A stretch of DNA of 64,000 nucleotides. It comes from an uncultured Bacteroidota bacterium. GTDB taxonomy: Bacteria; Bacteroidota; Rhodothermia; Rhodothermales; Salinibacteraceae. The position numbers were made by a program, and so were the translations under genes. Where the stretch lies: positions 1-64,000 of the forward strand of contig CAJXLV010000002.1 in assembly GCA_913056185.1 (NCBI GenBank). Direction: 5' to 3'. Of the stretch, positions 11,029-37,524 are shown piece after piece. A model generated the notes under the pieces. It worked only from the letters and a program-made list of their open reading frames with translations. It did no database searches and was not told the DNA's origin. Every line of letters begins with the position of its first letter. Positions within the stretch are counted from its first letter, which is position 1.

Positions 11029-11110
11029 TGATGCGTGATACGTGATTCGTGATGGAGGCAGAATCACTGCTGATTGGAAATCCTCACGCATCACTCCTCA
11101 CGCATCAGAG
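11029..11110 (+). repeat. GTGATGCGTGA-family repeat, both arms (ABC-rnz spacer)
   Basis: The left arm reads TGATGCGTGATACGTGATTC and continues GTGATGG. The right arm (11081-11110) reads TCCTCACGCATCACTCC and TCACGCATCAGAGG. The arms are separated by about 26 nt and could pair. The array would be translated if rnz began at the upstream ATG (11042), which argues against that start. Confidence 0.8.
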
Positions 11111-18443: not shown

Positions 18444-18642
18444 CGTTGGAGGTTACGCGGTGGGCGTTGAGGGTTTTGCGTTATAATTTTGGGCTGAGGT
18501 GGGAAATTCGGACGCAAGCTCGACGCTCATGATGTCCCTTGACAGCACCGATCCAGAACGCTCAACCCAAAACGCTCAACCCAAAACCCTCAACCCAGAA
18601 CGCTCAACCCAGAACCCTCAACCCTCAACCCAGAACGCTCAA
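18444..18642 (+). repeat. GGTTGAG-family repeat, long right arm of 14-bp units
   Basis: The left arm (about 18444-18486) has GTTGGAGGTTACGCGG and GGGCGTTGAGGGTTTTGCGTT. The right arm (18555-18642) is a tandem array of about six 14-bp units of the form ARAACSCTCAACCC, ending just before the ATG at 18649. About 70 nt of unrelated sequence lies between them. The units are translated in the longer frame (Thr-Gln-Asn-Pro repeats), which is why the internal ATG was chosen for the next gene. Confidence 0.85.
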
Positions 18643-18648
18643 TCCGAA

Positions 18649-19455
18649 ATGACCGCCGTCGCCGCCATTCTCGGAAGTGCCTTTTCGGACGCACTTCCGG
18701 GCGAACTGGACCTGGAAGCGGAAAAGATCGAGACCGAATGGGGCGAACAGACGCTCCACCGCGTCGCCGACACAGACCGACCCGCGTACGTCCTCTTTCG
18801 CCACGAGGTGCCGCATCGCCTGCTGCCCAACCAGATCCACTACCGGGCGCAGGCCGCGGCGCTGCGGGCCGTCGACTGCGGGGCGCTCCTGGTGACCAGC
18901 TCGGTGGGGGTGCTCGACAGTAACGTGCCCCTCTACCGCCCCCTCGTGGTCGACGATCTTCTCATGCTCGCCAACCGCCTGCCGGACGGCACGGCCTGCA
19001 CCATGTTCACCGATCCCGAGGGCGTTCGGCCCCGTCAGGGACACCTTGTGTTCGACGACGGACCGTTTGCTTCGGCCCTTACCGAGCAGGTACGCACCCT
19101 GGCGGCACAGGAGGACGCGCCCGTGGCCGACAGCGTCACGTTTGCCTACGTGCAAGGCCCCCGCTCGAAGACCGCCGCCGAAAACCGGGCCTTGCCGCGG
19201 CTGGGAGCGCAGGTCAACTCGATGACGCTGGGGCCGGAGGTGGTGCTGGCCAACGAGCTGGAGATTCCGTGCGCGGGGCTCGTGGTGGGGCACAAATACT
19301 CGATCCCCGACCGCGACCCGCCGGAGCGGAACGCCCTCTCCACCACCCTCGACCGCGCCCGCGAGGAGCAGGAGCGCATCGTCACGGCGTTCCTGCGCGA
19401 GGGCACACCGGTCGACTTTCCGAATACGATCTACCGGTTTGGGGAAGAAGCGTGA
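18649..19455 (+). CDS. MTAP/purine nucleoside phosphorylase-superfamily protein
   Basis: Member of the trimeric PNP/methylthioadenosine phosphorylase superfamily, 268 residues. It has the opening strand AILGSAF, a phosphate-site-like RHEVPHRLLPNQIHYRAQ (about 49-66), VTSSVGVLDSNVPL, and a base/ribose-binding segment QVNSMTLGPEVVLANELEIP (about 185-204) matching the MTAP pattern GMTxxPEAxLARE. It diverges enough that the substrate (MTA, another nucleoside or something else) cannot be set. It lies 32 bp before an MTR-kinase-like gene. A second, canonical PNP lies at 50875. Its TGA stop is the first unit of a GTGATGCGTGA repeat. Confidence 0.75.
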   Translation: MTAVAAILGSAFSDALPGELDLEAEKIETEWGEQTLHRVADTDRPAYVLFRHEVPHRLLPNQIHYRAQAAALRAVDCGALLVTSSVGVLDSNVPLYRPLVVDDLLMLANRLPDGTACTMFTDPEGVRPRQGHLVFDDGPFASALTEQVRTLAAQEDAPVADSVTFAYVQGPRSKTAAENRALPRLGAQVNSMTLGPEVVLANELEIPCAGLVVGHKYSIPDRDPPERNALSTTLDRAREEQERIVTAFLREGTPVDFPNTIYRFGEEA

Positions 19456-19474
19456 TGCGTGATGCGTGATGCGG
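19451..19474 (+). repeat. GTGATGCGTGA repeat, single arm
   Basis: Three units of GTGATGC that contain the stop codon of the phosphorylase-like gene and end 13 bp before the next gene. No opposing arm is present here. Confidence 0.7.
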
Positions 19475-19487
19475 CTTCTTTCGTTCG

Positions 19488-23667: not shown

Positions 23668-24123
23668 ATGTCGTCATTTCTCGATGCTCTCTGGGGCTGG
23701 TGGCGAGCACACCGGACGGACCGCATTACGGAAGCGCAGGTGCAGGCGCGGGTACAACGTGGGGCGGAGTACCTTGACGAGGTAGACCCGGGCTGGCATG
23801 CCCGGGTGAATGCGCAGACCCTGGAGTTGGAGGACGGGCAGCACTGCGTGCTGGGGCAGCTCCACGGCGGGTTTCGGCTCGGACTCGGGCGGTCCCAGGT
23901 GCTGAGCCTCTCGAGTGCCCCGCGGGCCAGTTTGTCGCCGGTGGCCTACGGTTTCAAGTGCGTCGAAGGGGTGTCCGAGGCGTGGCAGGCGCGCGACTAC
24001 GAGTTGCTGACGGCGGCCTGGCGGGAGGCCGTGCGCCGCCGACAACGGCAGGACCTACTGGAGGAGGTGCAGATGCCGACGGGAGTGCCCGCACGCGGCG
24101 AAGCAGAAGAGGTCCCGGCGTAG
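23668..24123 (+). CDS. Hypothetical protein of 151 residues
   Basis: Not assigned to a family here. The middle region GAEYLDEVDPGWHARVNAQT followed by LELEDGQHCVLGQLHGGF has the look of a small domain found in actinobacterial and phage hypotheticals, where a GAxxLDexxPGW segment precedes a C-x-LGQ segment. The N terminus is Trp-rich (LWGWWRAH) and the C terminus is basic then acidic. It ends 7 bp before the end of cimA on the other strand. Coding is supported by length, codon use and a gapless fit between neighbours. Confidence 0.6.
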   Translation: MSSFLDALWGWWRAHRTDRITEAQVQARVQRGAEYLDEVDPGWHARVNAQTLELEDGQHCVLGQLHGGFRLGLGRSQVLSLSSAPRASLSPVAYGFKCVEGVSEAWQARDYELLTAAWREAVRRRQRQDLLEEVQMPTGVPARGEAEEVPA

Positions 24124-24130
24124 CTGCCCC

Positions 24131-25726
24131 TCAAGCCGTCACCGCAGGGTCGTTGCCGTGTGCCGCCGCTCCATCCGTATGAAAGAAAAAGTACCGCAGA
24201 CCATCGGCCAGGGCCTGCCAGCTGGCGTCGAGGATGTTTTCGGAGACACCGACCGTGTTCCAGGTGCTCGTGCCGTCGCTGTGCTCGATGAGGACGCGGA
24301 CGGTGGCGGCGGTGCCGTCCTGCGGCGTGAGGACGCGCACCTTGTAGTCGGTTAGGCGAACAGAAGTGAGGGGCGGATAAAAGGTTTTTAGGCCGTCGCG
24401 CATTGCGTTGGAGAGGGCATCGACGGGACCGTCCCCCTCCGCCACGGCCAGTCGGCGCTGATCCTGCACACAGAGCGCCAGAGACGCCTCCACAGTCTGG
24501 CTGCCGGCCTCGTCCTGCCCGCTCCACACGCGCATGCGCTCCAACTCAAAGAAGCGGGGCATCCCGTCCTGCAAGGTGCGCAGCAGCAGCTCGAACGACG
24601 CCTCGGCCCCCTGAAACTCGTACCCGAGGTGCTCCAGCTCCTTGATCCGGTCGACGGCCTGCGCCGCATCGTCCGACGCCAGATCGATGCCCAGCTCCTC
24701 GGCCTTGTAGCGGATGTTGCTCCGGCCCGAGAGGTCGGACACGAGCGCCCGCCGCCGGTTGCCCACGGCGTCGGGCGCCACGTGCTCGTAGGTGCTCGGC
24801 TCCTTCATGACGGCCGAGACGTGCACGCCGCCCTTGTGCGTGAAGGCGCTCCGCCCCACGTACGGGGCGCCGTCGTCGGGGTCGAGGTTGGCCACCTCGT
24901 TCGTAAAGCGGGAGAGGTCGACGAGATCGCTGAGGGGATCCGCGTCGACGCATTCGAAGCCCATCTTCAGCTGCAGGTCGGGGATGACGGCGCAGAGGTC
25001 GGCGTTGCCGCAGCGCTCGCCGAGGCCGTTGATGGTGCCCTGCACGTGCCGCGCCCCGGCCCGCACCGCGGCGAGGGTGTTGGCCACCGCGCACCCGCCG
25101 TCGTTGTGGGCGTGGATGCCGAGGGTCGTATCAACGTCACTGTGGACGGCGCTGGCGACTTCGTGAATGTCGTGTGGCAGGGAGCCCCCGTTCGTGTCGC
25201 AGAGCACCAGCGTGTCGGCCCCGGCCTCGGCGGCGGCCCGGAGCGTGCGGAGGGCGTACTCCGGATGGTCGGCGTAGCCGTCGAAGAAGTGCTCCGCGTC
25301 GTAGATCACCCGCTTCCCGTGCTCGCGCAGAAACGCCACGGAGGAGCGGATGAGGTCCAGATTTGTCTCCAGCGACACCCCGAGCGCCTGCTCCACGTGC
25401 AGGGTCCACGACTTGCCGAAGATGGACACCACGTCCGTCTCCGCCGCGATGAGGGCCTGCAGGTTTGGGTCGTTCGCCGGGGCGTTGGAGGCGTGCCGGG
25501 TGGAGCCGAAGGCGCAGAGGGCAGCGTGGGGCCACTCCTCGGTGCGGGCATCGTCGAAGAACGCCTGGTCCTTGGGGTTGGAGCCGGGCCACCCGCCCTC
25601 GATCACGTCGATCCCAAACGCATCCAGGCGGCGGGCGATGCGTCCCTTGTCGCGGGCTGAGAGGGTCACGTGCTCGCCCTGCGTGCCGTCGCGAAGGGTG
25701 GTGTCGAAGAGTTCGATTGTAGGCAT
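24131..25726 (-). CDS. cimA: (R)-citramalate synthase
   Basis: Condenses pyruvate and acetyl-CoA to citramalate, giving 2-oxobutyrate for isoleucine without threonine deaminase. The 531-residue product has the DRE-TIM motif [17 protein letters not shown] at the N terminus, the metal-binding GIHAHNDGGCAVANT near 202-216, and a C-terminal LeuA-type allosteric domain (about 390-520). It is the last gene of the minus-strand BCAA cluster, 120 bp after ilvD. LeuC, LeuD and LeuB upstream can process citramalate as well as isopropylmalate, which explains why no separate genes are needed. Confidence 0.93.
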   Translation of the reverse strand: MPTIELFDTTLRDGTQGEHVTLSARDKGRIARRLDAFGIDVIEGGWPGSNPKDQAFFDDARTEEWPHAALCAFGSTRHASNAPANDPNLQALIAAETDVVSIFGKSWTLHVEQALGVSLETNLDLIRSSVAFLREHGKRVIYDAEHFFDGYADHPEYALRTLRAAAEAGADTLVLCDTNGGSLPHDIHEVASAVHSDVDTTLGIHAHNDGGCAVANTLAAVRAGARHVQGTINGLGERCGNADLCAVIPDLQLKMGFECVDADPLSDLVDLSRFTNEVANLDPDDGAPYVGRSAFTHKGGVHVSAVMKEPSTYEHVAPDAVGNRRRALVSDLSGRSNIRYKAEELGIDLASDDAAQAVDRIKELEHLGYEFQGAEASFELLLRTLQDGMPRFFELERMRVWSGQDEAGSQTVEASLALCVQDQRRLAVAEGDGPVDALSNAMRDGLKTFYPPLTSVRLTDYKVRVLTPQDGTAATVRVLIEHSDGTSTWNTVGVSENILDASWQALADGLRYFFFHTDGAAAHGNDPAVTA

Positions 25727-25827
25727 GGACGGGTGGAAGTATGGAGGAGTGGACGCATTGATCAGTCCGGCTCTCGTGTGCTACGCTGCTGCTCCTTGTG
25801 GCCTCGGGCTTCGGTGGGGAGAGACCC

Positions 25828-25850
25828 ATGCATCACGTTTCCCGCATCAC
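25828..25850 (-). repeat. GTGATGCGTGA-type repeat at the ilvD stop codon
   Basis: Read on the minus strand, the TGA of ilvD begins GTGATGCGGGAAACGTGATG. This is a single arm, with no opposing arm before cimA. Confidence 0.6.
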
Positions 25851-27565
25851 TCTTCGCTCGTCACGTGGGTGACGGCCCCATCTGCAGCAGAACCGAAGAG
25901 GGCGGCGTATTTGGCAAGAACGCCAGTGGTGTACTGGGGCTCGGGGGGCGACCACGCGTCGAGGCGTTGTTCCAGCTCGGCGTCGGCGAGGTCGACCTCC
26001 AGCGTGCGCTCCGCCACGTCGATCCGGATCGTATCGCCGTCCTGCACCGCAGCGAGTGGGCCGCCGACCGAGGCTTCAGGGGCGACGTGGCCGATGGAGA
26101 GGCCGCGGGTGGCGCCGGAGAAGCGCCCGTCGGTAATGAGCGCCACGTCCTGGGCGTGGCCCTGCCCGTCTCGTGCGGCGGTTACCCCGAGCATCTCGGG
26201 CATGCCGGGCGCGCCCTTGGGCCCGAGGGTGCGAATGATGATGGCGTCGCCGGATGCAATCCGGCCGGCCTGCACGTAGCTCATCGCGTCCGCCTCGCTC
26301 TCAAAAACCCGAGCAGTCCCTTCGAAGCGGAGGTTGTCGGCAGCCGTGATCTTGAGCACCGCGCCGTCGGGCGCCAGGTTGCCGGTGAGGATGCGAATCG
26401 CGCCTTCCTCGTTCTTGGGGGTGTCGACCGGGTAGAGGTAGTCCACGTTGAGGTCCGCAATGGCGGGCGGATCGACGCGGTCGAGCGCCTCGGCCATCGT
26501 CTCGCCGGTGACGGTAAGCGCGTCGCCGTGCAGCAGGCCTGCGTCCTGGAGTTCCTTGAGGACGACCGGCACGCCACCGACCTCATGGAGGTCGTTCATC
26601 ACACGCGAGCCGCCAGGCTGAAAGTCGCCAATCTTCGGCGTCCGGCGACTGATCGCGTCAAACGCCTCAATCGAGAGGTCGATGCCCGCCTCCGCCGCCA
26701 TCGCGAGCAGGTGGAGCACCCCGTTCGTGGAACCGCCCACGGCCACCTGCAGGGCAATCGCGTTCTCGAACGATTTTTTGCTGAGGAAGTCTGACGGTCG
26801 CCGCCGCTTTTTGACGGCCTCCACGGTGAGCCGACCCGTCTCGCGGGCCACCCTGTCACGAGATTCGTCCACCGCGGGCGGGCCTGCGCTCCCCAGCGGG
26901 GCAAAGCCGATCGCCTCGCTGATGGAGGCCATCGTATTGGCGGTAAACATGCCGCCGCAGGAGCCGGCGCCCGGGCAGGCATGGCGCTCGATCTCGTCGA
27001 GCTCCTCTTCCGTCATCTGTCCCGTAGCCACCGCCCCGCACGCCTCGAACACGTTTTGAATCGTGATGTCCTGCCCGCGGTGCCGCCCCGGCATAATCGA
27101 GCCGCCGTAAAGGAAGACGCTCGGCAGGTCGGCGCGGATGGCGGCCATCATCATGCCCGGCATGTTCTTGTCGCACCCGCCCATGACGACGAGTCCATCG
27201 AGCCGCTCGGCGAAGGCCACCAGCTCCACGGAGTCGGCGATGACCTCACGTGAGATGAGCGACCCCTTCATGCCCTCCGTCCCCATCGAGATGCCGTCGC
27301 TCACGGTGATGGTGCCGAATTCGATCGGCGTCCCGCCCGCTGCGTTCAGGCCGTCCCGCGCCGCGTCGGCGATGCGGTCGAGGTGCATGTTGCAGGGCGT
27401 CACGTCCGCCGCCGGGTTGGCAATGCCGATGAGCGGCTGCGCGAGGTCCTCGTCGTCGTAGCCCATGGCCCGAAACATGGCACGGGCCGGGGCGCGGCCG
27501 AGGCCCTCGGTGACGTCCTGGCTCTGGATTTTGTCGGAGTGGCCGTTTTCGGAAGGGGAGGGCAT
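25847..27565 (-). CDS. ilvD: Dihydroxy-acid dehydratase
   Basis: Fe-S enzyme that dehydrates 2,3-dihydroxy acids in valine, isoleucine and leucine synthesis. The 572-residue product has the three cluster cysteine motifs: [16 protein letters not shown] and [15 protein letters not shown]. The late GRFSGATRG motif is also intact. The ATG before [11 protein letters not shown] was chosen. The open frame extends 41 codons further but only by reading His-Ala-Ser-Arg repeats encoded by the GTGATGCGTGA array. The last codons touch a repeat as well. Confidence 0.95.
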
Positions 27566-27598
27566 TTGTAGGCGGGGTAGATGGGGAAAGGTTGGTAT

Positions 27599-27710
27599 TG
27601 ATGCGTGATACGTGATGCGTGGTACGTGATGCGTGAAGCGTGATGCGTGGTACGTGATGCGTGAGGCGTGAGGCTGCCCTCCTCTCACGTGTCACGTTTT
27701 CACGTGTCAC
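27599..27710 (-). repeat. GTGATGCGTGA-family repeat, both arms (leuD-ilvD spacer)
   Basis: About seven 10-11-bp units of the GTGATGCGTG type (with variants such as GTGGTACGTG) run from 27599 to 27673. A linker CTGCCCTCCTC follows, then three opposed units of the TCACGTGTCACG type run up to the leuD stop. The array fills the spacer almost completely. Confidence 0.85.
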
Positions 27711-28328
27711 TTAACAGTCAGCAAAGTCGTTCAGATACGGCACCTCATTCGCGGTTTGCCGCACCTCATCCATGTAGCTCTTCATCAGAGCCGTCGTGTC
27801 CCAGATGCCCTGCAGGAGCGCCTCGCGCTGCGAGTCGTTGATGGTGACGCCGATCGTCTCGTCACCGACGGTGGCCGTCTCGGCTTCGACGTCGATTGTC
27901 AGTTCGATGGTCGGATCGGCTTCCACCTGTCCCATGATCCACTCGACGGTTTCGGGGGCGGCGGTGACGGTGGGGAGGCCGAGGGCCTGGCAGTTGCCGG
28001 CGAAGATCTCAGCGAAGGACTCGCCGATGAGGCCGTCGATGCCCCAGCGCATGAGCGCCTGCGGGGCGTGCTCGCGCGAGGAGCCGCAGCCGAAGTTCTG
28101 GTTCACGACCAGGATGGACGCGTTCGGGTAGCGGTTGAACGGGTGGTCGTTCAAGGTGCCGTCGTCGTCCCGCCGCACGTCGTAGAAGGCGTACTCGCCC
28201 ATGTTGTCGAACGTCACCTCCTTGAGGAAGCGGGCGGGGACGATCTGGTCGGTGTCGATGTCGTTGCCGCGCACGGGGACAGCGGGGCCGGTGACGGTGG
28301 TTACGGTTTTGTCCGTTGCGGTGGGCAT
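27711..28328 (-). CDS. leuD: 3-isopropylmalate dehydratase small subunit
   Basis: Small swivel subunit that, with LeuC, isomerises 2- to 3-isopropylmalate (and citramalate to methylmalate). The 205-residue product has the conserved NDIDTDQIVPARFLK start, NQNFGCGSSREHAPQAL near 75-91 and a C-terminal domain of usual length. It is separated from leuC by a four-helix-bundle gene on the other strand, which is unusual because leuC and leuD normally adjoin or overlap. Its TAA stop is followed directly by repeat sequence. Confidence 0.95.
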   Translation of the reverse strand: MPTATDKTVTTVTGPAVPVRGNDIDTDQIVPARFLKEVTFDNMGEYAFYDVRRDDDGTLNDHPFNRYPNASILVVNQNFGCGSSREHAPQALMRWGIDGLIGESFAEIFAGNCQALGLPTVTAAPETVEWIMGQVEADPTIELTIDVEAETATVGDETIGVTINDSQREALLQGIWDTTALMKSYMDEVRQTANEVPYLNDFADC

Positions 28329-28333
28329 ATTGA

Positions 28334-28380
28334 GGGGCGTGATGCGTGAGGCGTGATTCGTGAGGCGTGATTCGTGAGGC
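28334..28380. repeat. Left inverted arm of the four-helix-bundle cassette
   Basis: Tandem GTGATGCGTGA/GTGATTCGTGA units between the leuD start and the four-helix-bundle gene. Bases 28351-28370 match the reverse complement of 28880-28899 at 19 of 20 positions. The arm is followed by GGCTGCTTTGG, which resembles the linker GGCTGCCCTCC seen in the leuD-ilvD array. Confidence 0.85.
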
Positions 28381-28396
28381 TGCTTTGGTCTGACCG

Positions 28397-28879
28397 ATGA
28401 ATTTCTCCGACTGGCAGGATCAGGTTCCGGCGTCGATTCGAGAGGATACGTTGTGGGACATTGAGGCGTATCGGCTGAGCCTGTTTGCGTCCGACGTGTG
28501 CTGGCAGGACATCCGGAAGATCCACGAGGAGTCGAATGCCTACTCGCTCGCGGATCAGCTGTATCGGGCCGTCGGGTCGATCAGTTCAAACATTGCGGAA
28601 GGCTACTCGCGGGGCACGGGGAAGGACCGCGCCCGGTTTTACGAGTACGCTCTCGGTTCTGCCCGGGAGAGCCGAGACTGGTACTACAAAAGTCGATTCA
28701 TCCTCGGGGACAACGTTGTGGATCATCGTCTCGATTTCATGACACAGATCATCCGGCTTTTGCTCGTGATGGTGCCCGATCAGCGCGGAGGTGAGATCCG
28801 TGACCCGGATTCGCAGTATCGTGCTTCTGAGTACAGTGAGACAGAGCGTCTCGAAGAAATTCCTTTCGCTTCGGAATAG
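28397..28879 (+). CDS. Four-helix-bundle protein (S23 / 23S rRNA intervening-sequence family)
   Basis: A 160-residue protein of the TIGR02436 four-helix-bundle family. The signature region is LADQLYRAVGSISSNIAEGY (about 55-74), followed by SRGTGKDRARFYEYALGSAR with the conserved Arg and Glu. Relatives are encoded inside 23S rRNA intervening sequences and elsewhere, and are related in fold to Avd of diversity-generating retroelements. A nucleic-acid-binding role is suspected but unproven. The gene lies antisense in the leuC-leuD spacer, between opposed repeat arms, with no obvious promoter of its own. The extra tail after about residue 130 is acidic. Confidence 0.88.
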   Translation: MNFSDWQDQVPASIREDTLWDIEAYRLSLFASDVCWQDIRKIHEESNAYSLADQLYRAVGSISSNIAEGYSRGTGKDRARFYEYALGSARESRDWYYKSRFILGDNVVDHRLDFMTQIIRLLLVMVPDQRGGEIRDPDSQYRASEYSETERLEEIPFASE

Positions 28880-28975
28880 TCACGCCTCACGATTCACGCA
28901 ACACGTCTCACGCAACACGTCTCACGCAACACGTCTCACGCATCACGTTTCACGCATCACGTTTCACGCATCAAT
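28880..28975. repeat. Right inverted arm of the four-helix-bundle cassette
   Basis: Nine or so units (TCACGCCTCACGATTCACGC, then TCACGCAACACG-type three times, then TCACGCATCACGTT-type) start directly after the TAG of the four-helix-bundle gene. They run into the 3' end of leuC on the other strand, where they encode its last residues. Confidence 0.85.
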
Positions 28976-30375
28976 CGCCGTACGTCGGTGACTGCCCCTT
29001 CTATTGCCGCCGCCACCACCATCGCCGGGCTCATCAGCACCGTGCGCCCGTCCTTGCTGCCCTGGCGGCCGATGAAGTTGCGGTTGGAGGAGGAGGCGCA
29101 GAGCTCGCGGCCCTGCAGTTGGTCCTCGTTCATGCCCAGGCACATGGAGCAGCCGGCGCCGCGCCAGTCGAAGCCCGCCGCGCGGAACGTATCGGCGAGG
29201 CCTTCGTCCTCGGCCTGCTGCTTCACGCCCTGCGAGCCGGGGACGACCATCGCCCGCACGTCGTCGGCCACTGGGCGATCCAGCCGCTCCAGGAGCGACG
29301 CCGCCTCGCGGAGGTCGGTGATGCGCGCGTTGGTGCAGGAGCCGAGGAACGCCACGTCTACGTTGACGCCCTCCATCGTGCGGCCGGGCCGCAGGTTCAT
29401 GTGATCGAGCGCCTTCTCGGCCGTCGCCCGGTCGCCGGAGTCCATGGTGGCCGGATCGGGGATCGGCTCCGAGATGCCGATCGCCTGCCCCGGCGTGATG
29501 CCCCACGTCACCATCGGCTCGATGGCCGAGCCGTCGAACGTCACGGTGTCGTCGTATGTCGCATCCGGGGCGGACTGAATGTTCTGCCAGCAGTCGATGG
29601 CCCGCTCCCAGGCCTTGCCGCTCGGGGCGTGGGGGCGGCCCTTCACGTACTCGAACGTGGTGAGGTCGGGATTCACGTAGCCGGCGCGGGCCCCGCCCTC
29701 GATGCTCATGTTGCAGATCGACATCCGGCCCTCCATGCTGAGCCCCTCGATGGCCGGGCCGCCGTACTCGTAGACGTACCCGATGCCGCCCTCCACGCCC
29801 AGCTCGCCGATGATCTTGAGGATGATGTCCTTGGCGTACACGCCCTCCCCGAGCGAGCCGGTCACCTCGATGCGGCGCACGTCCTGCTTCTCCATCGCGA
29901 TGCACTGGGTCGCCAGCACGTCGCGGATCTGGCTCGTGCCGATGCCGAAGCCGAGGGTGCCGAAGGCCCCGTGCGTGCTCGTGTGCGAGTCGCCGCAGAC
30001 GATGGTCATGCCGGGCTGCGTGAGGCCCTGCTCCGGCCCCACCACGTGCACGATCCCTTGCGCGCCCGACGTGGGGTCGAAGAAGGTGATGTCGTATTCT
30101 TCGGTGTTTTGCTCCAACTCCTGGAGCATCGTTTCGGCCTGGTCGTCGCCGAAGGGGCGGGAGAGATCCGCCGTGGGGACGATGTGGTCGGTGGTGGCGT
30201 AGGTGCGATCCGGAAATGCCACCGACAGGTCGCGCTCCTCGAGCATGCCGAACGCTTGCGGGCTCGTGACCTCATGAATGAGGTGCAGGCCCACGAACAG
30301 CTGCGTTTCGCCGGTGGGCAGCTCCCGGACGGTGTGCTGGTTCCAGACGTTGTCGTAGAGGGTGCCGGTGGACAT
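28957..30375 (-). CDS. leuC: 3-isopropylmalate dehydratase large subunit
   Basis: Aconitase-family Fe-S subunit that partners LeuD. The 472-residue product has the cluster ligands in GSCTN near 350 and CSMCLGMN near 410, and the [20 protein letters not shown] substrate region near 135-155. Its start faces the leuA-leuC repeat array. The final residues LMRET and the TGA stop are encoded by a GTGATGCGTGAAACGTGA-type repeat, suggesting that repeat sequence has replaced or extended the original C terminus. Confidence 0.96.
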
Positions 30376-30421
30376 CAGTGAGGTGGGCGGATCCGAAAGG
30401 GTACGCTAGTATTCAGAAAGG

Positions 30422-30486
30422 GCGTGATGCGTGAGGAGTGATACGTAAGGATGCCCTTCCCTCACGCATCACGTTTCACGTATCAT
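30422..30486 (-). repeat. GTGATGCGTGA-family repeat with 14-bp stem (leuA-leuC spacer)
   Basis: CGTGATGCGTGAGG (30423-30436) is the exact reverse complement of CCTCACGCATCACG (30460-30473). The loop is 23 nt and contains GGATGCCCTTC. Further units extend to the leuA stop, whose TGA is part of the array. The transcript would form a long hairpin directly after leuA. Confidence 0.9.
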
Positions 30487-32123
30487 TCCCCGTACGCGTG
30501 CATAATGCCGTTCTGGACGAACTCGACGGACTCAGCGTTCGCACGAGCGGCGGCGAGGCGGTTTAGGGCGTCGACGTAGGCGTCGGCCGAGGCGCGGACG
30601 ACATCGGTGTCGCGGGCGTGGCCCACAAACTCGTTTTCGCCGTACCGCACGTGGACCTCGACCTCGCCCTGTGCATCGGCGCCTTCGCTAATGGCCTGGA
30701 GGGCGAAGTCGACCAGGGTGTGGGGCTGGTCCACCGCATGATCGATCGCCCGGTAGACCGCCTCCACCGGCCCCTCGCCCGTGGCGTTCTCCTCGCGCAC
30801 GGAGCCATCGTCGCGCTGGATGCGCACCGAAACCTGCGGGTCCTCGTCCGTGGTGATCTGCACGGACAGATGATCGAGACGGTAGGCGGGCGCGTCGCCA
30901 TTGGGGCCGGCGCCGTCGTCGGGCAGGCCCGTCGATGCTTTGACGGCTTCTGCGCCGAAGTCCTCCATCATCTGCTCGAGGTCCTCTTCAAAGACCTCCT
31001 TCTTGCGGTCGGCGAGATCCAGGAAGCGCTGGTAGATCTCGCCGTGATGGGAGGCGGGCACCTCGTAGCCCAGTGCCTCCAGGCGGTTGAAAAGGCCGTG
31101 GCGACCCGAGTGGCGGCCCAGCCGAATCTGCTCGGCCTCCTGCCCCACGTCCTCGGCGGACATGATCTCGTAGGTGGTTCGCTCCTTGAGGACGCCGTGC
31201 TGGTGGATGCCGGCTTCGTGGCTGAAGGCATTGTCGCCGACGATGGCCTTGTTCGGCTGCACCGGGAAGCCGGTCGCGGCCGAGACCAGCTGGCTCGTGG
31301 GCGTTAGGTACTCAGTGTGGATCGCCGGCTTTACGTCGAACTGATCCGCGCGGACCGTCAGGGCCATCACGATTTCCTCCAGGGCGGCATTGCCGGCTCG
31401 TTCCCCGATGCCGTTGATCGTGCACTCCACCTGCCGGGCACCGGCTCGCACGCCCGCGAGGGTGTTTGCCGTGGCGAGGCCGAGGTCGTCGTGGCAATGG
31501 GTGGAGAGGGTGACCGCGTCCGGGGCGGGCAAGCCGTCGATCACCGACGCCAACAGATCAGCGTATCCGGACGGGGCGCAGTAGCCGGTCGTGTCGGGGA
31601 TGTTGATCGTCGTCGCCCCGGCCTCGGCCGCCGCCTGCACGATCTCGCGGAGAAAGCCGCGGTCGGTGCGCCCCGCATCTTCGGCGCTGAACTCAACATC
31701 ATTGGTGTAGGTGAGGGCCTGCTCGATGGCGCGGACGGCACGCTCGATGATGGCCTGTCGCTTCTCGGCCATCGTGTCCCCGAGGGTGTCAAATTTTGCC
31801 TCGATGTGGATGTCGCTCGTGGCGATGAAGGTGTGCAGGCGCGTATCGGTCCCGCCTTCGAGGGCCTCGCCGGCGGCGTCGATGTCGTCCTCCTTGGTGC
31901 GGGCGAGGGCACAGGTGACGGGGCCGTCGACCTCGCTTGCGATGCGGGCTACGGCCGCAGTCTGCGTGGGCGACGAGATGGGGAATCCGGCCTCGATCAC
32001 GTCTACGTTCAGGTCCGCCAGCTTCTTTGCGATGCGGACCTTCTCGGGAACGGTCATGGAGGCGCCCGGCGCCTGTTCGCCGTCGCGAAGGGTGGTGTCG
32101 AAAATCGTAATGGAATTGCTCAT
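30483..32123 (-). CDS. leuA: 2-isopropylmalate synthase
   Basis: First committed leucine enzyme, condensing acetyl-CoA with 2-oxoisovalerate. The 546-residue product has [16 protein letters not shown] at the N terminus, the [14 protein letters not shown] metal site near 200, [12 protein letters not shown], and a C-terminal allosteric domain (about 400-546). The acidic linker near 395-420 fits a halophile. It is 107 bp upstream of leuC and 330 bp downstream of leuB. CimA, its closest relative in the window, shares the fold but has the HVTLS rather than GASM continuation. Confidence 0.95.
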
Positions 32124-32453
32124 CGGTTGGGGCGTACGCTGAATTCAGGTCGTCGGGGAGCAAGGTGGGGGGCAGAGAAGCGCCCGGACGCCGCGCTGGT
32201 CGTCGCGTCCGGACGCTCGATAAGGCGCAGGCCCCTTCGACCGCGCGCCCCGAGGTCCTTCGGAGCGAGGGGCGGTTCGTCAGGTGGAGGACGGTACCTC
32301 ATGGCGCAGAGGCTTAGTCTGGTGTTCGGAACTGGAGCCGAATTTCTGTTCTTCTGCTCTGGGGCAGGTTCGAAGGTCTTGTTCTCCTGAGTGTCATGTC
32401 CATTTTGGATCTGATTCAGAAGAGGGAGGTCGTTTTGAGCCTTCGAGCACCTG
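32124..32453 (-). other. leuB-leuA spacer, no gene seen
   Basis: A 330-bp gap in an otherwise tight cluster. It holds an 8-bp perfect stem (CCGGACGC at 32184-32191 and GCGTCCGG at 32205-32212, 13-nt loop) about 60 nt before leuA and no member of either repeat family. Frames crossing it have no family resemblance. An internal leuA promoter or attenuator could sit here, but no good -35/-10 pair was found. Confidence 0.4.
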
Positions 32454-33587
32454 TCATGAGAGGGAAGGCGAAGCATTCTGGGGGGAGTGATCGGCGGCGC
32501 GGGTGGCAACTTCACGGCCAAAGGTAGAGGTGGATACAGCCTCCTCGTCATTCGCTGCGAGGTCCCGCGTCCGGAAGCCGGCATCCAGGGTTGCGTCGAC
32601 GCCGTGCCGGACCGCCTCCGCGGCCTCGTGCTCGCCGAGTTCGTCGAGCAGGAGGGCGGCGCTGAGGATCGTGCCGATCGGATTGGCCGCGTCCTCCCCG
32701 GCGAGATCCGGGGCGCTGCCGTGAACCGGCTCGAAGACCCCCACTGCGCCCCCAATGCTGGCGGAGGGAAGAAGGCCGAGCGAGCCCGGCAGGGCTGCCG
32801 CAAGGTCGGAGAGGATGTCGCCGAACAGGTTGCCCGTGAGCACCACGTCGAACTGCTGCGGATCGCGAACGACCTGCATCGCAGCGTTGTCGACGTACAG
32901 GGAACGGAGCGCCACGTCAGGATAGTGCTCCTCGCGGAGTCGGGTCACGACCTCCCGCCACAGCCCCGACACCTCCAGCACGTTCGCCTTGTCGACGGAG
33001 GTCACGTGCCCGTTGCGCCGCTGCGCCCGCTGGAAGGCGATGTGGGCGATGCGTTCGACTTCTGCCTCCGAGTACACCATCGTGCTGCGGGCCCCGTCGT
33101 CGGTGCGCCCCTCCGGCGTGCCGAAGTAGATGCCGCCGGTCAGCTCGCGGACGAACAAGAGGTCGGCGCCGCTTACGCGGTCGGGGCGGAGGGGAGAGGC
33201 CGACGCCAGCGCGTTGGAAACGCGGACGGGGCGCAGGTTGGCGTAGACGCCGAGGGCCTTGCGGAGGGCGAGGAGTCCGCTTTCCGGCCGCTGGTCACCT
33301 GTGTTGTCGTTCCATTTCGGCCCACCGACCGCGCCGAGCAGGACCGCGTCGCTCTCCTGGCACGCCGTGCGGGTGTCGTCGGGAAACGGAACGCCGGCCT
33401 CATCGAGCGCCGCGCCGCCCATGAGGTGCTCCTCGGCGGTGAAGGCGAATCCATGGGCCGAAGCCACTGCGTCCAGCGCGCGGAGTGCCTCCCGCGTCAC
33501 TTCGGGGCCGATGCCGTCCCCGGGGAGCCAGGCGATTTCGTACGTTGAGGCGTCTCGGCGAGACGGCTTTACGGCTTCGTTGGGCAT
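32454..33587 (-). CDS. leuB: 3-isopropylmalate dehydrogenase
   Basis: NAD-dependent oxidative decarboxylase of leucine synthesis, 377 residues. It opens with YEIAWLPGDGIGPEV. The catalytic YSEAEVERIAHIAF and DKANVLEVSGLWREVV motifs are mid-protein. The NAD-binding run GGAVGVFEPVHGSAPDLAG near 285-303 is present. In this pathway it probably also oxidises the citramalate-derived methylmalate. The C-terminal 20 residues, after ATRA, are a variable Ser/Pro tail. It lies between ilvC and leuA in the cluster. Confidence 0.95.
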   Translation of the reverse strand: MPNEAVKPSRRDASTYEIAWLPGDGIGPEVTREALRALDAVASAHGFAFTAEEHLMGGAALDEAGVPFPDDTRTACQESDAVLLGAVGGPKWNDNTGDQRPESGLLALRKALGVYANLRPVRVSNALASASPLRPDRVSGADLLFVRELTGGIYFGTPEGRTDDGARSTMVYSEAEVERIAHIAFQRAQRRNGHVTSVDKANVLEVSGLWREVVTRLREEHYPDVALRSLYVDNAAMQVVRDPQQFDVVLTGNLFGDILSDLAAALPGSLGLLPSASIGGAVGVFEPVHGSAPDLAGEDAANPIGTILSAALLLDELGEHEAAEAVRHGVDATLDAGFRTRDLAANDEEAVSTSTFGREVATRAADHSPQNASPSLS

Positions 33588-33665
33588 AAGGGACGTCGTG
33601 GATCGAGGGGATTGAGGCGTCCCAGGGCCGAAAGGCAGGCCGTGGGGGCCGGAGGGGCGACGTGG

Positions 33666-34712
33666 CTATGCGGACTCCGTCGCGGCGGCCGCGTCTGGGT
33701 CCGAGGCTTCGCCATTCTCCGGGGCCTCGTCGTCCTCCAGCCAGGGCATCATGCCGCGTAGTTTTTTGCCGACCTGCTCGATCGGGTGGTCCTTCAGGGC
33801 CTCGCGTTCCTTCTGGAGGCGGCTGGCGCCCTGCTCGTACTCCTCAATCCACTCGTCGGCAAACTCGCCGGACTGGATCTCATCGAGGATGTCCTTCATT
33901 TCGTCGCGCACATCGTCATTGATCACGCGCGGCCCACGGGTGTGATTGCCATACTCGGCCGTGTCGCTCACCGAGTAGTTCATGTACTCGAGTCCGCCCT
34001 CGTAGTAGAGGTCGACGATCAGCTTCAGCTCGTGGAGGCACTCGAAGTAGGCCAGCTCCTCGGGGTAGCCGGCGTCCACCAGCGTCTCGAAGCCCGCCTG
34101 GATGAGCGCCTGCGAGCCGCCGCAGAGCACGGCCTGCTCCCCGAACAGGTCGGTTTCGGTCTCGTCTTTGAACGTGGTCTCGATCACGCCGGCGTGCGTG
34201 CCGCCGATGGCGTCGGCGTAGCTAATGGCGAGGTTCATCGCGCCGCCGGAGGCATCCTGGGCGACGGCGGCGAGGCACGGCACGCCGCTGCCCTGTGCGT
34301 AGGTGCGGCGGACGAGGTGGCCGGGGGACTTCGGGGCCACCATAAAGACGTCCACGCCTTCGGGCGGCTCGATGCGGCCGTAATGCACATTGAAGCCGTG
34401 CCCAAAGCCGAGCGCTGTGCCGGGCGTCACGTGGGCCTCGATCTTCGCCTCGTAGACGTCCTTCTGGTGCTGGTCGGGAATGAGGAGCATGACTACATCG
34501 CCCCATGCAGCGGCCTCATCGATTGTCATGACGGACAGGCCCTGTTGCTCGGCCTTCGCGCGGGAGGAGGAGCCGGGGCGCAGGCCCACGGCCACGTCCA
34601 CGCCGCTATCGTGCAGGTTGAGCGCGTGGGCGTGGCCCTGGCTGCCGTAGCCAATGACGGCCACCTGCTTGTCACGGATGAGGGAGGGGTCGGCGTCGTA
34701 GTGTACGTCCAT
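33666..34712 (-). CDS. ilvC: Ketol-acid reductoisomerase (class I)
   Basis: NADPH- and Mg-dependent isomeroreductase shared by valine, isoleucine and leucine synthesis. It is 348 residues, a class I length. [15 protein letters not shown] near 19-33 is the cofactor loop, followed by [14 protein letters not shown]. The metal-binding D/E residues lie in [20 protein letters not shown] and [14 protein letters not shown]. The C-terminal 25 residues are an acidic extension ([15 protein letters not shown]), as in many halophile proteins. A GGTTGAG-family arm lies just upstream of its ATG. Confidence 0.96.
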
Positions 34713-34715
34713 TAT

Positions 34716-34750
34716 TGAGTTGAGGGTTGGGAGTTGAGCGTTGGGTGTTC
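34716..34750 (-). repeat. GGTTGAG-family arm upstream of ilvC
   Basis: On the plus strand: GAGTTGAGGGTTGGGAG followed by TTGAGCGTTGGGTG, directly before the ilvC start codon (minus strand). Only one arm is visible. Confidence 0.65.
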
Positions 34751-34771
34751 TGGAAGGCAGGCGGTAAGAGA

Positions 34772-35419
34772 CTACTTGTTGTCCGGGGTCGAGCCGTTTT
34801 CGGGTTGGGCAGCGTCGGTAGAGGCGAGGGGATTGGGGGCCTCGTATTCCAGGTCTCGGTGCATGGCCACTTGCCCGCTGCGCGCCACCTCCTCGATGCC
34901 GTGCGCCTCCATCATGCCGATAAAGGCATTGATCTTCTTGTTCGGGCCGGTCACCTCGAGTACCATCGTTTCGGGCGTCACGTTGACGACGCGTCCGCGG
35001 AAGATGTCTTTAATGTCGAGGATTTCCGGGCGGGTGTCGGATGTGTACCGCACCTTCAAGAGGCACAACTCGCGCTCCACATGCTCCGCGTCGGTCAGGT
35101 CGGTCACTTCGTAGGTATTGACGAGGTTGTCGAGCTGGCGCGTGATCTGGGCCACGATGCGCTCATTGCCTACCGTGACAAGCGTGAGCCGTGCGACGGA
35201 CGGCTCGTCTGTTTCCCCCACGGCCACACTTTCGAGGTTGAAGCCTCGCGCCGAAAATAGATTCGTGACGCGGTTGAGCGCGCCGATCGTGTTTTCGAGC
35301 GTGACGGCGATCATGTGCCGCCGTTCTTGGTCGGTGCCGTTTTCTTCTTCCGGCAAAATCGGCTCGCCAAACTTTCGCTTCCGGCGGATCTGTTGGCGGG
35401 TCAGCGTGTCTTCGGACAT
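34772..35419 (-). CDS. ilvN: Acetolactate synthase small (regulatory) subunit
   Basis: Regulatory subunit that activates IlvB and mediates valine feedback. The 215-residue product starts with a basic/polar N-terminal extension (about 30 residues). It then has the ACT domain beginning [20 protein letters not shown] near 36-55, with [18 protein letters not shown], and the C-terminal ACT-like half. It lies 59 bp before ilvC and 120 bp after ilvB, in the usual B-N-C order. Confidence 0.94.
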
Positions 35420-35466
35420 GGGAATGTGCTGGTTGATTCAAATCGGGGAGGCTCACGGGAGACGGA

Positions 35467-35543
35467 GTGAAACGTGAAGCGTGAATCGTGATTGTGCTAC
35501 TGCTTCACTTCTCACGCATCACGAATCACTCGTCACCCATCAC
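35467..35543 (-). repeat. GTGATGCGTGA-family repeat, both arms (ilvB-ilvN spacer)
   Basis: GTGAAACGTGAAGCGTGAATC then GTGATT on the plus strand, a short linker (GTGCTACTGC), then TTCACTTCTCACGCATCACG and TCACTCGTCACCCATCAC. The TGA of ilvB is the outermost unit on the right. Confidence 0.8.
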
Positions 35544-37333
35544 TTATCCGCCATCTTTTCCTTGTCAAACATCTCCGTGAGCATGTCGTCGCTGGCGGCG
35601 CCGGCGGGGACCATCGGGAAGACCATCTCCTCCTTGGGCACCTGAAATTCCATCACCACAGGGCGGTCGTCGATCTCCCAGGCCTGGTCGATCACGTCAC
35701 CCACCTCGTCGGGGGACGTGGCCCGCAGGCCGACGCAGTGGTGCGCCTCGGCGAGCTTTACGAAGTCGGGATTCGTGGGCTTGAGGTCCGTGTGGCTGAA
35801 GCGGTCCTCGTGGAACAGGGACTGCCACTGCCGCACCATGCCGAGGTAGCTGTTATTGAGGATGGCAACCTTGAGCGGCAGGCCGTGCGCTGCGGCGACG
35901 CTGAGCTCCTGCCCGTTCATCACAAAGCCCCCGTCGCCGCTCACGCAGACGACGTCGAGGTCGCGTCCCTCCCGCATGCCGAACGCCGCGCCCATCGCTG
36001 CCGGCAGGCCAAAGCCCATTGTCCCGAGGCCGCCGGAGCTGATATGGGAGCGAGTTTGGCCGAACTTGTAGTACTGGCAGACCCACATCTGGTGCTGACC
36101 CACGTCGGAGACCATCACGGCGTCGCCCTGCGTCTTGTCGTAGAGCGCCTCCACGACCGCTTCGGGGGCAATCTGGTCGTCGGCCTCCGGCGGGTCGTAG
36201 TCGTACGGCGGACAGTCGGCGCGCCACGCGTCGATCTGGGCGAGCCAGTCGGTCGTGTCTTTCGGCTCCACCTTGGGAAGCAACTGCTCCAGGACGGCCT
36301 GCGCGTCGCCGACGAGGGCACAGTCGGCGTACACGTTTTTGGAGATACAGGACGGATCGATGTCGACGTGGATAATCTTCGCGTTGGGCGCCCACTCTTC
36401 CACGTCCCCCGTCACGCGATCGTCGAACCGGGCGCCAACGGCCATGATAAGGTCGGCGTTCTGCACGGCCATGTTCGTGTGGTAGAAGCCGTGCATGCCC
36501 AGCCAGCCGAGGGCCAGGTCGTCCGTTTCGGGGAAGGCGCCGAGCCCGTGCAGAGTAGTGGTGACGGGGATGTTGGTCTTTCGGGCGAGCTCCGTGAGGG
36601 CCTCCGGGGCGTCGGCGTTGATGGTACCGCCCCCGACGTAGAGGAGCGGCTTCTCGGCGTCCGCAATCATCTTTGCGGCGCGGTCCACCTGCTTCGAGAC
36701 CGCCGCTCCCGGGACGGAGTAGCCGTCCAGCGTCGGCTCTTTGGGGTAGACGAACGGGGCCTCGTCCATCTGCACGTCCTTCGGAATGTCGACGACGACG
36801 GGGCCGGGCCGGCCGGTGCGGGCGATGTGATAGGCCTGCTTCACCGTCGCAGCCAGCTCGCTCACGTCCTGCACCAGGAAGTTGTGCTTCGTGATGCTGC
36901 GGGTGACGCCTGTCGTGTCCGTCTCCTGAAAGCTGTCGTTGCCGATGAGGTGCGTGGGCACCTGACCGGTGAAGACGACGATGGGCACCGAGTCCATGTA
37001 GGCGTCCGCGATGCCGGTGACTGTATTGGTGGCGCCGGGGCCGCTGGTGACGAGCACCGTGCCGACGCGCCCGGTGGCCTTCGCGTAGCCCTCGGCCGCG
37101 TGCGCGCCGCCCTGCTCGTGGCGAACGAGCACGTGGTCGTACGACGGCTGGATGCGCTCCATGGCGTCGTAGATTTTGATCACGGCGCCGCCGGGGTGGC
37201 CAAAGACACGGTCGACTCCTTCTTCTTCGAGGGCGCGGACGAAGATCTCGGAGCCTTTCAGGATGGGCGCGTCGGGAGCGCCGTTGAGGGGGGAGGACGC
37301 GGAGTCTGGCGATCGTACAGAAGGGGTAGGCAT
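35540..37333 (-). CDS. ilvB: Acetolactate synthase large (catalytic) subunit
   Basis: ThDP-dependent enzyme that makes acetolactate and acetohydroxybutyrate. The product is about 597 residues. The catalytic Glu lies in VRHEQGGAHAAEGYAKATGR near 60-79. The ThDP/Mg motif starts GDGGFVMNGQELSVAAAHG and ends in the NN pair near 450-480. The ATG at 37333 is preferred to the one 33 bp upstream because it overlaps the stop of a 63-codon leader ORF as TGATG, suggesting translational coupling. It heads the minus-strand cluster and follows a leader of about 480 nt. Confidence 0.95.
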   Translation of the reverse strand: MPTPSVRSPDSASSPLNGAPDAPILKGSEIFVRALEEEGVDRVFGHPGGAVIKIYDAMERIQPSYDHVLVRHEQGGAHAAEGYAKATGRVGTVLVTSGPGATNTVTGIADAYMDSVPIVVFTGQVPTHLIGNDSFQETDTTGVTRSITKHNFLVQDVSELAATVKQAYHIARTGRPGPVVVDIPKDVQMDEAPFVYPKEPTLDGYSVPGAAVSKQVDRAAKMIADAEKPLLYVGGGTINADAPEALTELARKTNIPVTTTLHGLGAFPETDDLALGWLGMHGFYHTNMAVQNADLIMAVGARFDDRVTGDVEEWAPNAKIIHVDIDPSCISKNVYADCALVGDAQAVLEQLLPKVEPKDTTDWLAQIDAWRADCPPYDYDPPEADDQIAPEAVVEALYDKTQGDAVMVSDVGQHQMWVCQYYKFGQTRSHISSGGLGTMGFGLPAAMGAAFGMREGRDLDVVCVSGDGGFVMNGQELSVAAAHGLPLKVAILNNSYLGMVRQWQSLFHEDRFSHTDLKPTNPDFVKLAEAHHCVGLRATSPDEVGDVIDQAWEIDDRPVVMEFQVPKEEMVFPMVPAGAASDDMLTEMFDKEKMADK

Positions 37334-37524
37334 CAGACGAAGGGGGGCGGATGAGGAAAAGAGCATCGCAAGGAGGCACCGGGCGGGAGGGACCCCGGAT
37401 AGCTCTGAGATGCACGCGGTCTCCGCATCGGCCGGGGGTGGGCATGAGGGCCCGGCGATGAGGATCGCCTACACGACGGCATCGGAGGGCGACGCACGAT
37501 GACGGAGGACAAGAGCGTGGGCAT
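37333..37524 (-). CDS. Possible ilvB leader ORF with Leu/Val/Ile codons
   Basis: A 63-codon frame beginning MPTLLSSVIVRRPP. Five of residues 4-10 are branched-chain amino acids, the placement expected of an attenuation leader, and the rest is Pro/Arg/Ser-rich with no fold. Its TGA shares its last base with the ilvB ATG. It starts 12 nt after a 10-bp RNA stem. Whether it is translated is not shown by the sequence. Such codons could occur by chance in this frame. Confidence 0.35.
   Translation of the reverse strand: MPTLLSSVIVRRPPMPSCRRSSSPGPHAHPRPMRRPRASQSYPGSLPPGASLRCSFPHPPPFV

Follow-up and report, generated by a model that had tools for sequence, protein, structure and literature searches.

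Genes for S23-family four-helix-bundle proteins are often bracketed by inverted arrays of gene-specific 7- or 8-nucleotide repeats

Introduction

Genes for four-helix-bundle proteins of the S23 family occur in spacers between protein-coding genes and are frequently bracketed by two inverted arrays of short repeats, mostly tandem units of 7 or 8 nucleotides whose sequence varies from gene to gene. This architecture is spread over many phyla and has a common polarity, the type of repeat is linked to the relatedness of the proteins, and gene-less arrays in the same genomes usually resemble the resident arms. The chances seem about equal that many S23 genes outside rRNA are, or are not, one half of a two-part unit composed of a ring protein and its cognate, convergent 7- or 8-nt arrays; binding of the arrays, its stoichiometry, action at the RNA level and any mobility are what we infer from this layout.

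A gene-specific repeat code beside many S23 genes would provide a directly testable substrate for a common protein and would join two loose ends, namely orphan S23 genes and bacterial heptamer repeats; it also suggests that the intervening sequences (IVSs) of rRNA belong to a wider class. Titles and abstract openings of the literature (largely open-access, from the top of result lists) gave no link of non-rRNA S23 genes to flanking 7- or 8-mer arrays, which is weak evidence of novelty.

The S23 Gene of the leuC-leuD Spacer

The window (the whole stretch of 64,000 nucleotides analysed) contains the following features around the S23 gene.

28397–28879, plus strand: S23/four-helix-bundle protein gene, 160 aa, antisense to the leu operon (PF05635, TIGR02436)
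28337–28378, plus strand: upstream arm, six tandem CGTGANN heptamers pointing inward
28880–28975, minus strand: downstream arm, about 13–14 tandem heptamers, CGTGANN and variants such as CGTGTTG
27711–28328, minus strand: leuD, flanking the S23 gene
28957–30375, minus strand: leuC, flanking the S23 gene on the other side

The preliminary description of this DNA had reported a complete plus-strand S23 gene between leuD and leuC, and profile searches bear this out: the reading frame at 28397–28879 matches PF05635 (E 2.3e-16, 60.4 bits, curated cut-off 33.8) and TIGR02436, "four helix bundle protein" (E 3.4e-19, 69.1 bits, cut-off 24). PF05635 is the sole Pfam match of the protein, and a Y1 HuH transposase domain is absent. 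According to their Pfam domains the neighbours constitute a branched-chain amino acid operon (nine ilv/leu genes, 24131–37366), the gene names being those that we take to go with these domains. Besides leuA, the cluster includes a second HMGL/LeuA_dimer gene (24131–25726, minus strand), which we presume could be a citramalate synthase.

The frame is enclosed by an inverted-repeat stem made of inverted arrays of the degenerate CGTGANN heptamer, and the inner segments of the arms (28351–28370 and 28880–28899) are complementary at 19 of 20 positions, as had been noted. Three consecutive CGTGANN units occur 66 times in the own genome as compared with 0 occurrences of a reversed control pattern, so the heptamer arrays are above chance. 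The view that the locus is IVS-like although outside rRNA, its gene occupying a loop enclosed by a long inverted repeat, also holds: the locus lies between leuD and leuC, not in 23S rRNA, and positions 24000–36000 of the window gave no Rfam match at E<=0.1. In the leu transcript the stem would be a putative substrate of RNase III, the enzyme by which IVSs of rRNA are excised. With dN/dS values of 0.06–0.22 among six leu-S23 orthologues, the protein is by this measure under purifying selection.

Inverted Arms at Other S23 Genes

Seven S23 matches, including the leu copy, occur in the own genome. Copies elsewhere with unrelated flanks, named in the preliminary description as evidence against a repeat-bounded cassette, were found in part: three of the six other copies (L001–L003) do have inverted arms, which differ in sequence (GGTAAGG-, AACGTTG- and GTTGAGG-like), and L004, L006 and L007 showed no arms by the test that found those of L001–L003.

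In 25 of the 27 family genomes, 129 S23 matches were found. The family set analysed consists of 95 of these; most of the remaining matches were weaker or incomplete or stood further down the list, and some were strong. Comparison of upstream flanks with the reverse complement of downstream flanks gave a median score of 13.75; the median was 10.5 both for mismatched partners and for outer flanks, taken 600 nt farther from the gene. Among S23 copies 23 of 94, and among outer flanks 1 of 90, reached the 99th percentile of the mismatched control. For 260-nt flanks, 49 of 94 copies exceeded the 95th percentile of mismatched flanks and 24 of 94 the 99th. Autocorrelation is raised at lags 7 and 8 (also 14 and 15) in both flanks, and neither within the gene nor 900 nt away.

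Strict arrays of period 7 adjoin 19 of the 95 family copies and those of period 8 adjoin 6 of 95, while an evenly spaced 400-kb sample of the near-complete genome G016 contained two and none, respectively; its arrays of other periods (three of period 6, six of 9, one of 10 and one of 11) have a single counterpart in S23 flanks, of period 11. An inverted-arm score of at least 12.5 was attained by 42 of 94 S23 copies (52 fell below) versus 3 of 192 ordinary G016 spacers (Fisher p 1.5e-20), in a comparison where gene calls came from a simple script and the spacer halves were often shorter than the 180/190-nt S23 flanks. Arms are strongly enriched at S23 genes over other spacers.

The best period was 7 in 60 loci, 8 in 32, 9 in 3 and none in 12 (107 loci; period and polarity were counted only in arms scoring at least 14). 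The period-7 unit has about five conserved and two variable positions, the two least conserved being adjacent in 28 of 53 period-7 arms, where one third would be expected by chance (p 0.003). The inward-reading strand is poor in C: G exceeded C in 39 of 40, 15 of 16 and 49 of 50 of the arms in which the two differed; polarity is weaker in two low-GC genomes (13 of 19 distinct copies, 14 of 20 rows). Over 146 loci scoring at least 12.5, the arms contain G and C at 2966:930 (G>C in 135 versus 9 loci) and the remaining flanks at 13204:10713 (121 versus 23 loci), that is, the G bias is general in the flanks, yet smaller outside the arms.

A GTGTCT motif, mostly as ATGTGTCT, is located between arm and start codon at L007, L012, L027, L043, L055 and L084 (Salinibacter-type) and is perhaps a promoter.

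Spread Across Bacteroidota and Other Phyla

PF05635 matches were found in 157 of 198 sampled Bacteroidota genomes, with up to 16 per genome. Among the 30 best-scoring loci of this phylum, a non-random choice, 17 exceeded the 95th percentile of mismatched flanks. When named genomes were scanned, the best 80 of 585 loci were retained, 78 of which were entered (L232 and L283 were omitted) and 77 had sufficient flank; many are from metagenome bins. In this best-scoring set 58 of 77 loci were above the 95th percentile of mismatched partners and 36 of 77 above the 99th (62 and 36, respectively, when the control was drawn again). The non-Bacteroidota loci contributed 19 of 24 above the 95th percentile, two of these 24 loci being Ignavibacteriae. 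Armed loci include records titled Deltaproteobacteria (31 of 31 positions matching), Thiobacillus, Ruminococcus, Acidobacteriales and Anaerolineae; there was no arm signal at the Gloeocapsopsis (short upstream flank), Daviesbacteria, SAR324, Tenacibaculum, Sunxiuqinia and Faecalibacter loci.

Two genomes, G216 and G091, were picked as single contigs with many S23 copies, and all copies found were taken. The 95th percentile was exceeded by 11 of 14 distinct copies in G216 (12 of 15 rows, one copy being listed twice as L319 and L320 where the contig ends overlap) and by 8 of 11 in G091. The copies of each genome carry different arms, and strict arrays adjoin 6 of the 26 S23 rows of both. Bracketing arrays are therefore peculiar neither to the leu S23 gene nor to the CGTGANN repeat.

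Arms and Protein Relatedness

Most family S23 copies belong to about a dozen locus groups with common flanking genes. Arms of different S23 groups are no more alike within one genome (9.34) than between genomes (9.38), and the repeat type is therefore a property of the gene rather than of the genome. When pairs with unrelated outer flanks were compared among 80 armed many-phyla loci, arms were more similar the more identical the proteins were (rho 0.153; 0 of 500 permutations). Unit length follows the proteins as well: on a quick protein tree of 87 rows, 7 changes between lengths 7 and 8 were counted versus 25 in shuffled data (0 of 500), and one tree group (support 85, not starred) unites 19 length-8 rows from Bacteroidota genera and from KSB1, Nitrospirae, Desulfobacteraceae and Lambdaproteobacteria records. 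After removal of locus orthologues and of pairs at least 60% identical, 55 rows gave 8 changes versus 10.2 when shuffled (13 of 300 as low). By these comparisons, arm-protein coupling is clear among relatives and marginal at depth.

Within the family, own arms scored higher on average than cross comparisons in 11 of 12 locus groups (group B was reversed), by no more than 0.5 in groups I, K and leu, and the own arm beat the best cross in just 25 of 74 cases. As a minimum reading, gene and arms could be co-inherited as a unit; the stronger reading is that the protein could recognize its arms.

Gene-less Arrays

Arrays without an S23 gene between them occur at several places in the window:

27597–27710, no strand assigned: gene-less heptamer hairpin, leuD-ilvD spacer; the best of 227 S23 loci is the own S23 with its arms
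30420–30484, no strand assigned: gene-less heptamer hairpin, leuA-leuC spacer
35463–35548, no strand assigned: gene-less heptamer hairpin, ilvB-ilvN spacer
25820–25866, minus strand: degenerate single array between the leuA-like gene (24131–25726) and ilvD, family D1
19443–19477, plus strand: single gene-less CGTGATG array; own S23 ranks 2 of 227
11033–11053, plus strand: single gene-less CGTGANN array of three units
18596–18642, no strand assigned: gene-less array of another type (CTCAACC), resembling the L003 arms of the same genome (rank 4 of 227)

The first three confirm that arms similar to those of the S23 gene are present in the leuD-ilvD, leuA-leuC and ilvB-ilvN spacers, with RNA folding z scores of -3.7, -5.0 and -3.7, respectively, against dinucleotide shuffles. 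The likeness between the linker before the gene (GGCTGCTTTGG) and that of the leuD-ilvD spacer (GGCTGCCCTCC) is also real, and GTGAGGCTG was found again in the leuD-ilvD spacers of G016, G015 and G019. The longest ilvD frame (25847–27688, minus strand) extends into the hairpin and acquires N-terminal HASRITYHAS... repeats; translation probably starts at the ATG near 27565.

Hairpins that gene-less arms form in RNA at gene ends are what ordinary intrinsic terminators would look like, and inverted repeats may also arise by chance. This explanation is scarcely credible in view of the periods of 7 and 8, the length, polarity and S23 specificity of the arms, the shifted and mismatched controls, and the finding that 20 strong S23 loci match no Rfam family at gathering scores.

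Gene-less arrays resemble the arms of S23 genes resident in the same genome, which rank 1–4 of 227 for 10 of 11 arrays: 4, 2 and 1 for three arrays of the window, 3 and 45 for two arrays of G016, and 1, 1, 2, 1, 2 and 1 for six arrays of G216, which are non-independent, five being of one type. These six are all the strict arrays found away from S23 genes in 400 kb of G216, a distant genome; all have period 7, and the sample held no arrays of periods 5, 6 or 8–11.

At the level of whole genomes the correspondence is looser. Of 28 K-type arrays, 23 are in three K-group genomes and 5 in four others, so that they fit gene presence better than CGT-type arrays do. CGTGANN and CGTRTTN arrays together number 27–107 in nine genus members with a leu-S23 match of at least 61% identity and 1–30 in four genus members without such a match, one of which is 62% complete. 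Both types also occur where no close leu-S23 was seen (G010, G001, G022), CGTGANN arrays peaking in G010 (125 arrays), a genome with no close leu-S23 but 62% complete. Outside the genus, CGT-type arrays are many in G010 and G001, without a close leu-S23, and G002, with an orthologue, has none, including zero of CGTGANN; the relation to leu-S23 is an association, not a rule. CGARTNN arrays abound in genomes lacking the J-group gene (G001, 66; G004, 17; G007, 21) and are absent from G003, which has that gene. In G001, the arms of the S23 copy L049 are ATCGTGAGTCGTGA-like and match in type the arrays of this genome. The proposal that CGTRTTN arrays are tied to one leu-S23 subclade was rejected, as they are present with both subclades.

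Twenty gene-less array loci were selected by pattern; in 18 of them the type occurs in a single orientation (counting exact cores, which a degenerate second arm could escape), and several of the 20 have an array of another type opposite, across the spacer. Two repeat types per spacer were seen at the G001 loci L292, L294, L295 and L297, where CGTGANN and CATTGATCAATG-type arrays face each other.

The existence of gene-less arrays, most of those 20 one-armed, would be expected if arrays arose by replication slippage and hairpin-templated correction, the S23 genes being passengers that tolerate or prefer such spacers; such correction could also make the arms of one locus turn over in concert, as in 11 of 12 groups. 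We consider this improbable, since the strong enrichment at S23 genes over other spacers, the gene specificity of arms within a genome and the arm-protein link all speak against it.

Known Systems and a Possible Mechanism

A single-sequence prediction models the S23 protein as four long helices with modest confidence (pLDDT 64.8). The best Foldseek matches are 2rld and 2gsc (probability 1.00, but E 5e-3 to 6e-2), PDB relatives with five chains each; the Xanthomonas one of the two is described as a ring of five four-helix bundles, as cited in passages of PMC4990558 and PMC10053308. The latter also describes PF05635 as homologous to Avd, an accessory protein of diversity-generating retroelements, the likeness extending to structure. 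No reverse transcriptase was present among the nine ilv/leu genes scanned (24131–37366), and PADLOC assigned two S23 proteins to no defence family.

RAYT genes are flanked by inverted copies of their own repeat type, and gene-less copies are dispersed. The S23 genes are alike in standing between inverted copies of a repeat also present gene-less in the genome; they differ in that S23 is not a Y1 HuH transposase and in that the repeats are tandem 7- or 8-mers rather than palindromes of 20–40 bp. IVSs of 23S rRNA share with the leu locus the protein family and an ORF in the loop of an inverted repeat, and in Coxiella, according to passages of PMC4990558, tandem heptamers precede the S23 ORF of the IVS. 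Unlike these, the leu locus is in a protein-coding spacer, with gene-specific degenerate arrays on both sides and gene-less arrays elsewhere; a search of this stretch of the window and of 20 other loci gave no rRNA match. The best and most economical model is S23 with cognate repeats, in a layout comparable to RAYT-REP, of which the rRNA IVS may be a special case.

The TRAP ring binds spaced GAG/UAG triplets. Although TRAP is unrelated to S23, the analogy lies in a ring protein combined with short cores and spacers of 2–3 nt, binding by S23 being putative. The five-membered ring and the short core with its 2–3 nt spacer could mean one repeat unit per subunit on a single strand. In the proposed mechanism, a putative S23 pentamer would bind an array in single-stranded form, in the transcript most likely and possibly in DNA, each subunit contacting one short core as TRAP contacts its triplets. 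Bracketing arrays would then serve self-recognition of the unit, in autoregulation, processing or copying, and arrays elsewhere that have these units but no gene would provide further cognate sites, in the way that REP sequences relate to RAYT genes.

Intergenic tandem heptamers also occur in Beggiatoaceae (TAACTGA); in contrast to those described here, nearly all of them are direct repeats, usually placed upstream of starts (passages of PMC4679880), and the main text of that paper contains no "four helix", "23S" or "intervening". The S23 family is named in a figure legend of PMC10910872.

A broader proposal, which we put forward tentatively as having something less than an even chance, is that S23 proteins form a large class of rings, so far unrecognised, that read repeats. 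Each would read its own tandem 7- or 8-nt code of core plus spacer, the unit length being set by the protein clade; its gene would lie within a unit that this code delimits, and it would use or maintain matching arrays dispersed in its genome. If so, rRNA IVSs would be members of the class that settled in 23S rRNA.

Variation Among Relatives and Possible Mobility

The leu-S23 gene is bounded by CGTGANN arms in G000, G014, G015, G016 and G019 (87–90% identity to the window protein), by CGTATTN arms in G013, G017 and G018 (61–66%), likewise in G021 upstream, the side that its contig covers, and by CGTAAAN-like arms in G007, where the gene is inverted; in G002 the S23 gene is on the opposite side of leuD. 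The other outcome that the preliminary description named as evidence against its reading also came true in part: G012 and G022, without the gene at leuC-leuD, are also without arms. As both gene-less spacers are armless, gene and arms seem to go together, and the arms, which are gene-specific, seem to travel or turn over with the gene. Of the leuD-downstream spacers, 12 were examined and nearly all have a hairpin, CGTGANN or CGTATTN (degenerate or partial in G012, G018 and G021).

Eleven of 14 pheS-pheT loci were inspected. An S23 unit with TTCGAAT-type arms is present in G015, where it fills the spacer from stop codon to start codon, and in G022, G013, G017 and G018; G021 was counted with these by locus group. 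Gene-less hairpins are of CGTATTN type in G016 (flank 96% identical to G015) and G014, degenerate in G012, and of AACGTTG type in G000, G011 and G019. At the K locus, a unit with arms is present in G016 and G019, and a short armless spacer in G015, G012, G011, G022 and G000; the flanks of G016 and G015 are 95% identical. Because the difference at the K locus reaches into the beginning of the following gene, it probably reflects exchange between species.

According to the preliminary description, the cassette might target the loop of a GTGATGCGTGA hairpin that was already in place. The gene-less pheS-pheT hairpins of relatives may indeed reflect a shared site, and the linker similarity in the leu operon points the same way, but the hairpin types at pheS-pheT differ from the arms of the S23 unit there, the arms of other copies differ too, and the gene-less spacers are armless both at leuC-leuD (G012, G022) and at the K locus (five genomes), which makes such insertion very improbable.

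Another possibility is a mobile or formerly mobile element akin to rRNA IVSs or RAYT/REP, whose gene and terminal arrays move jointly, whose gene-less derivatives are non-autonomous hairpins, and whose S23 protein works together with an enzyme of the host or of a retroelement, much as Avd cooperates with reverse transcriptase. It would account for the K unit of G016 missing from G015, for the pheS-pheT S23 unit of G015 facing a CGTATTN hairpin in G016, and for similar proteins and arms with unrelated flanks in KSB1, Nitrospirae and Desulfobacteraceae records, and it agrees with the PF05635-Avd homology noted in PMC10053308. We nevertheless consider it rather unlikely: G216 and G091 have no recent paralogues (best identity 0.59 and 0.75, the double-listed copy set aside), most of the 95 family copies are in groups with common flanking genes, an unsystematic look revealed no target-site duplication, and the K difference is explicable by homologous exchange between species.

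Two rearranged loci were also seen. In G018 the pheS-pheT S23 unit (L203) is enlarged by additional sequence between arm and gene that contains GATTCCCAGGATTC-like repeats, and in G007 a second leu-type S23 is present as two pieces (C31, 4249–4687 and 6268–6747) beside the full-length inverted copy.
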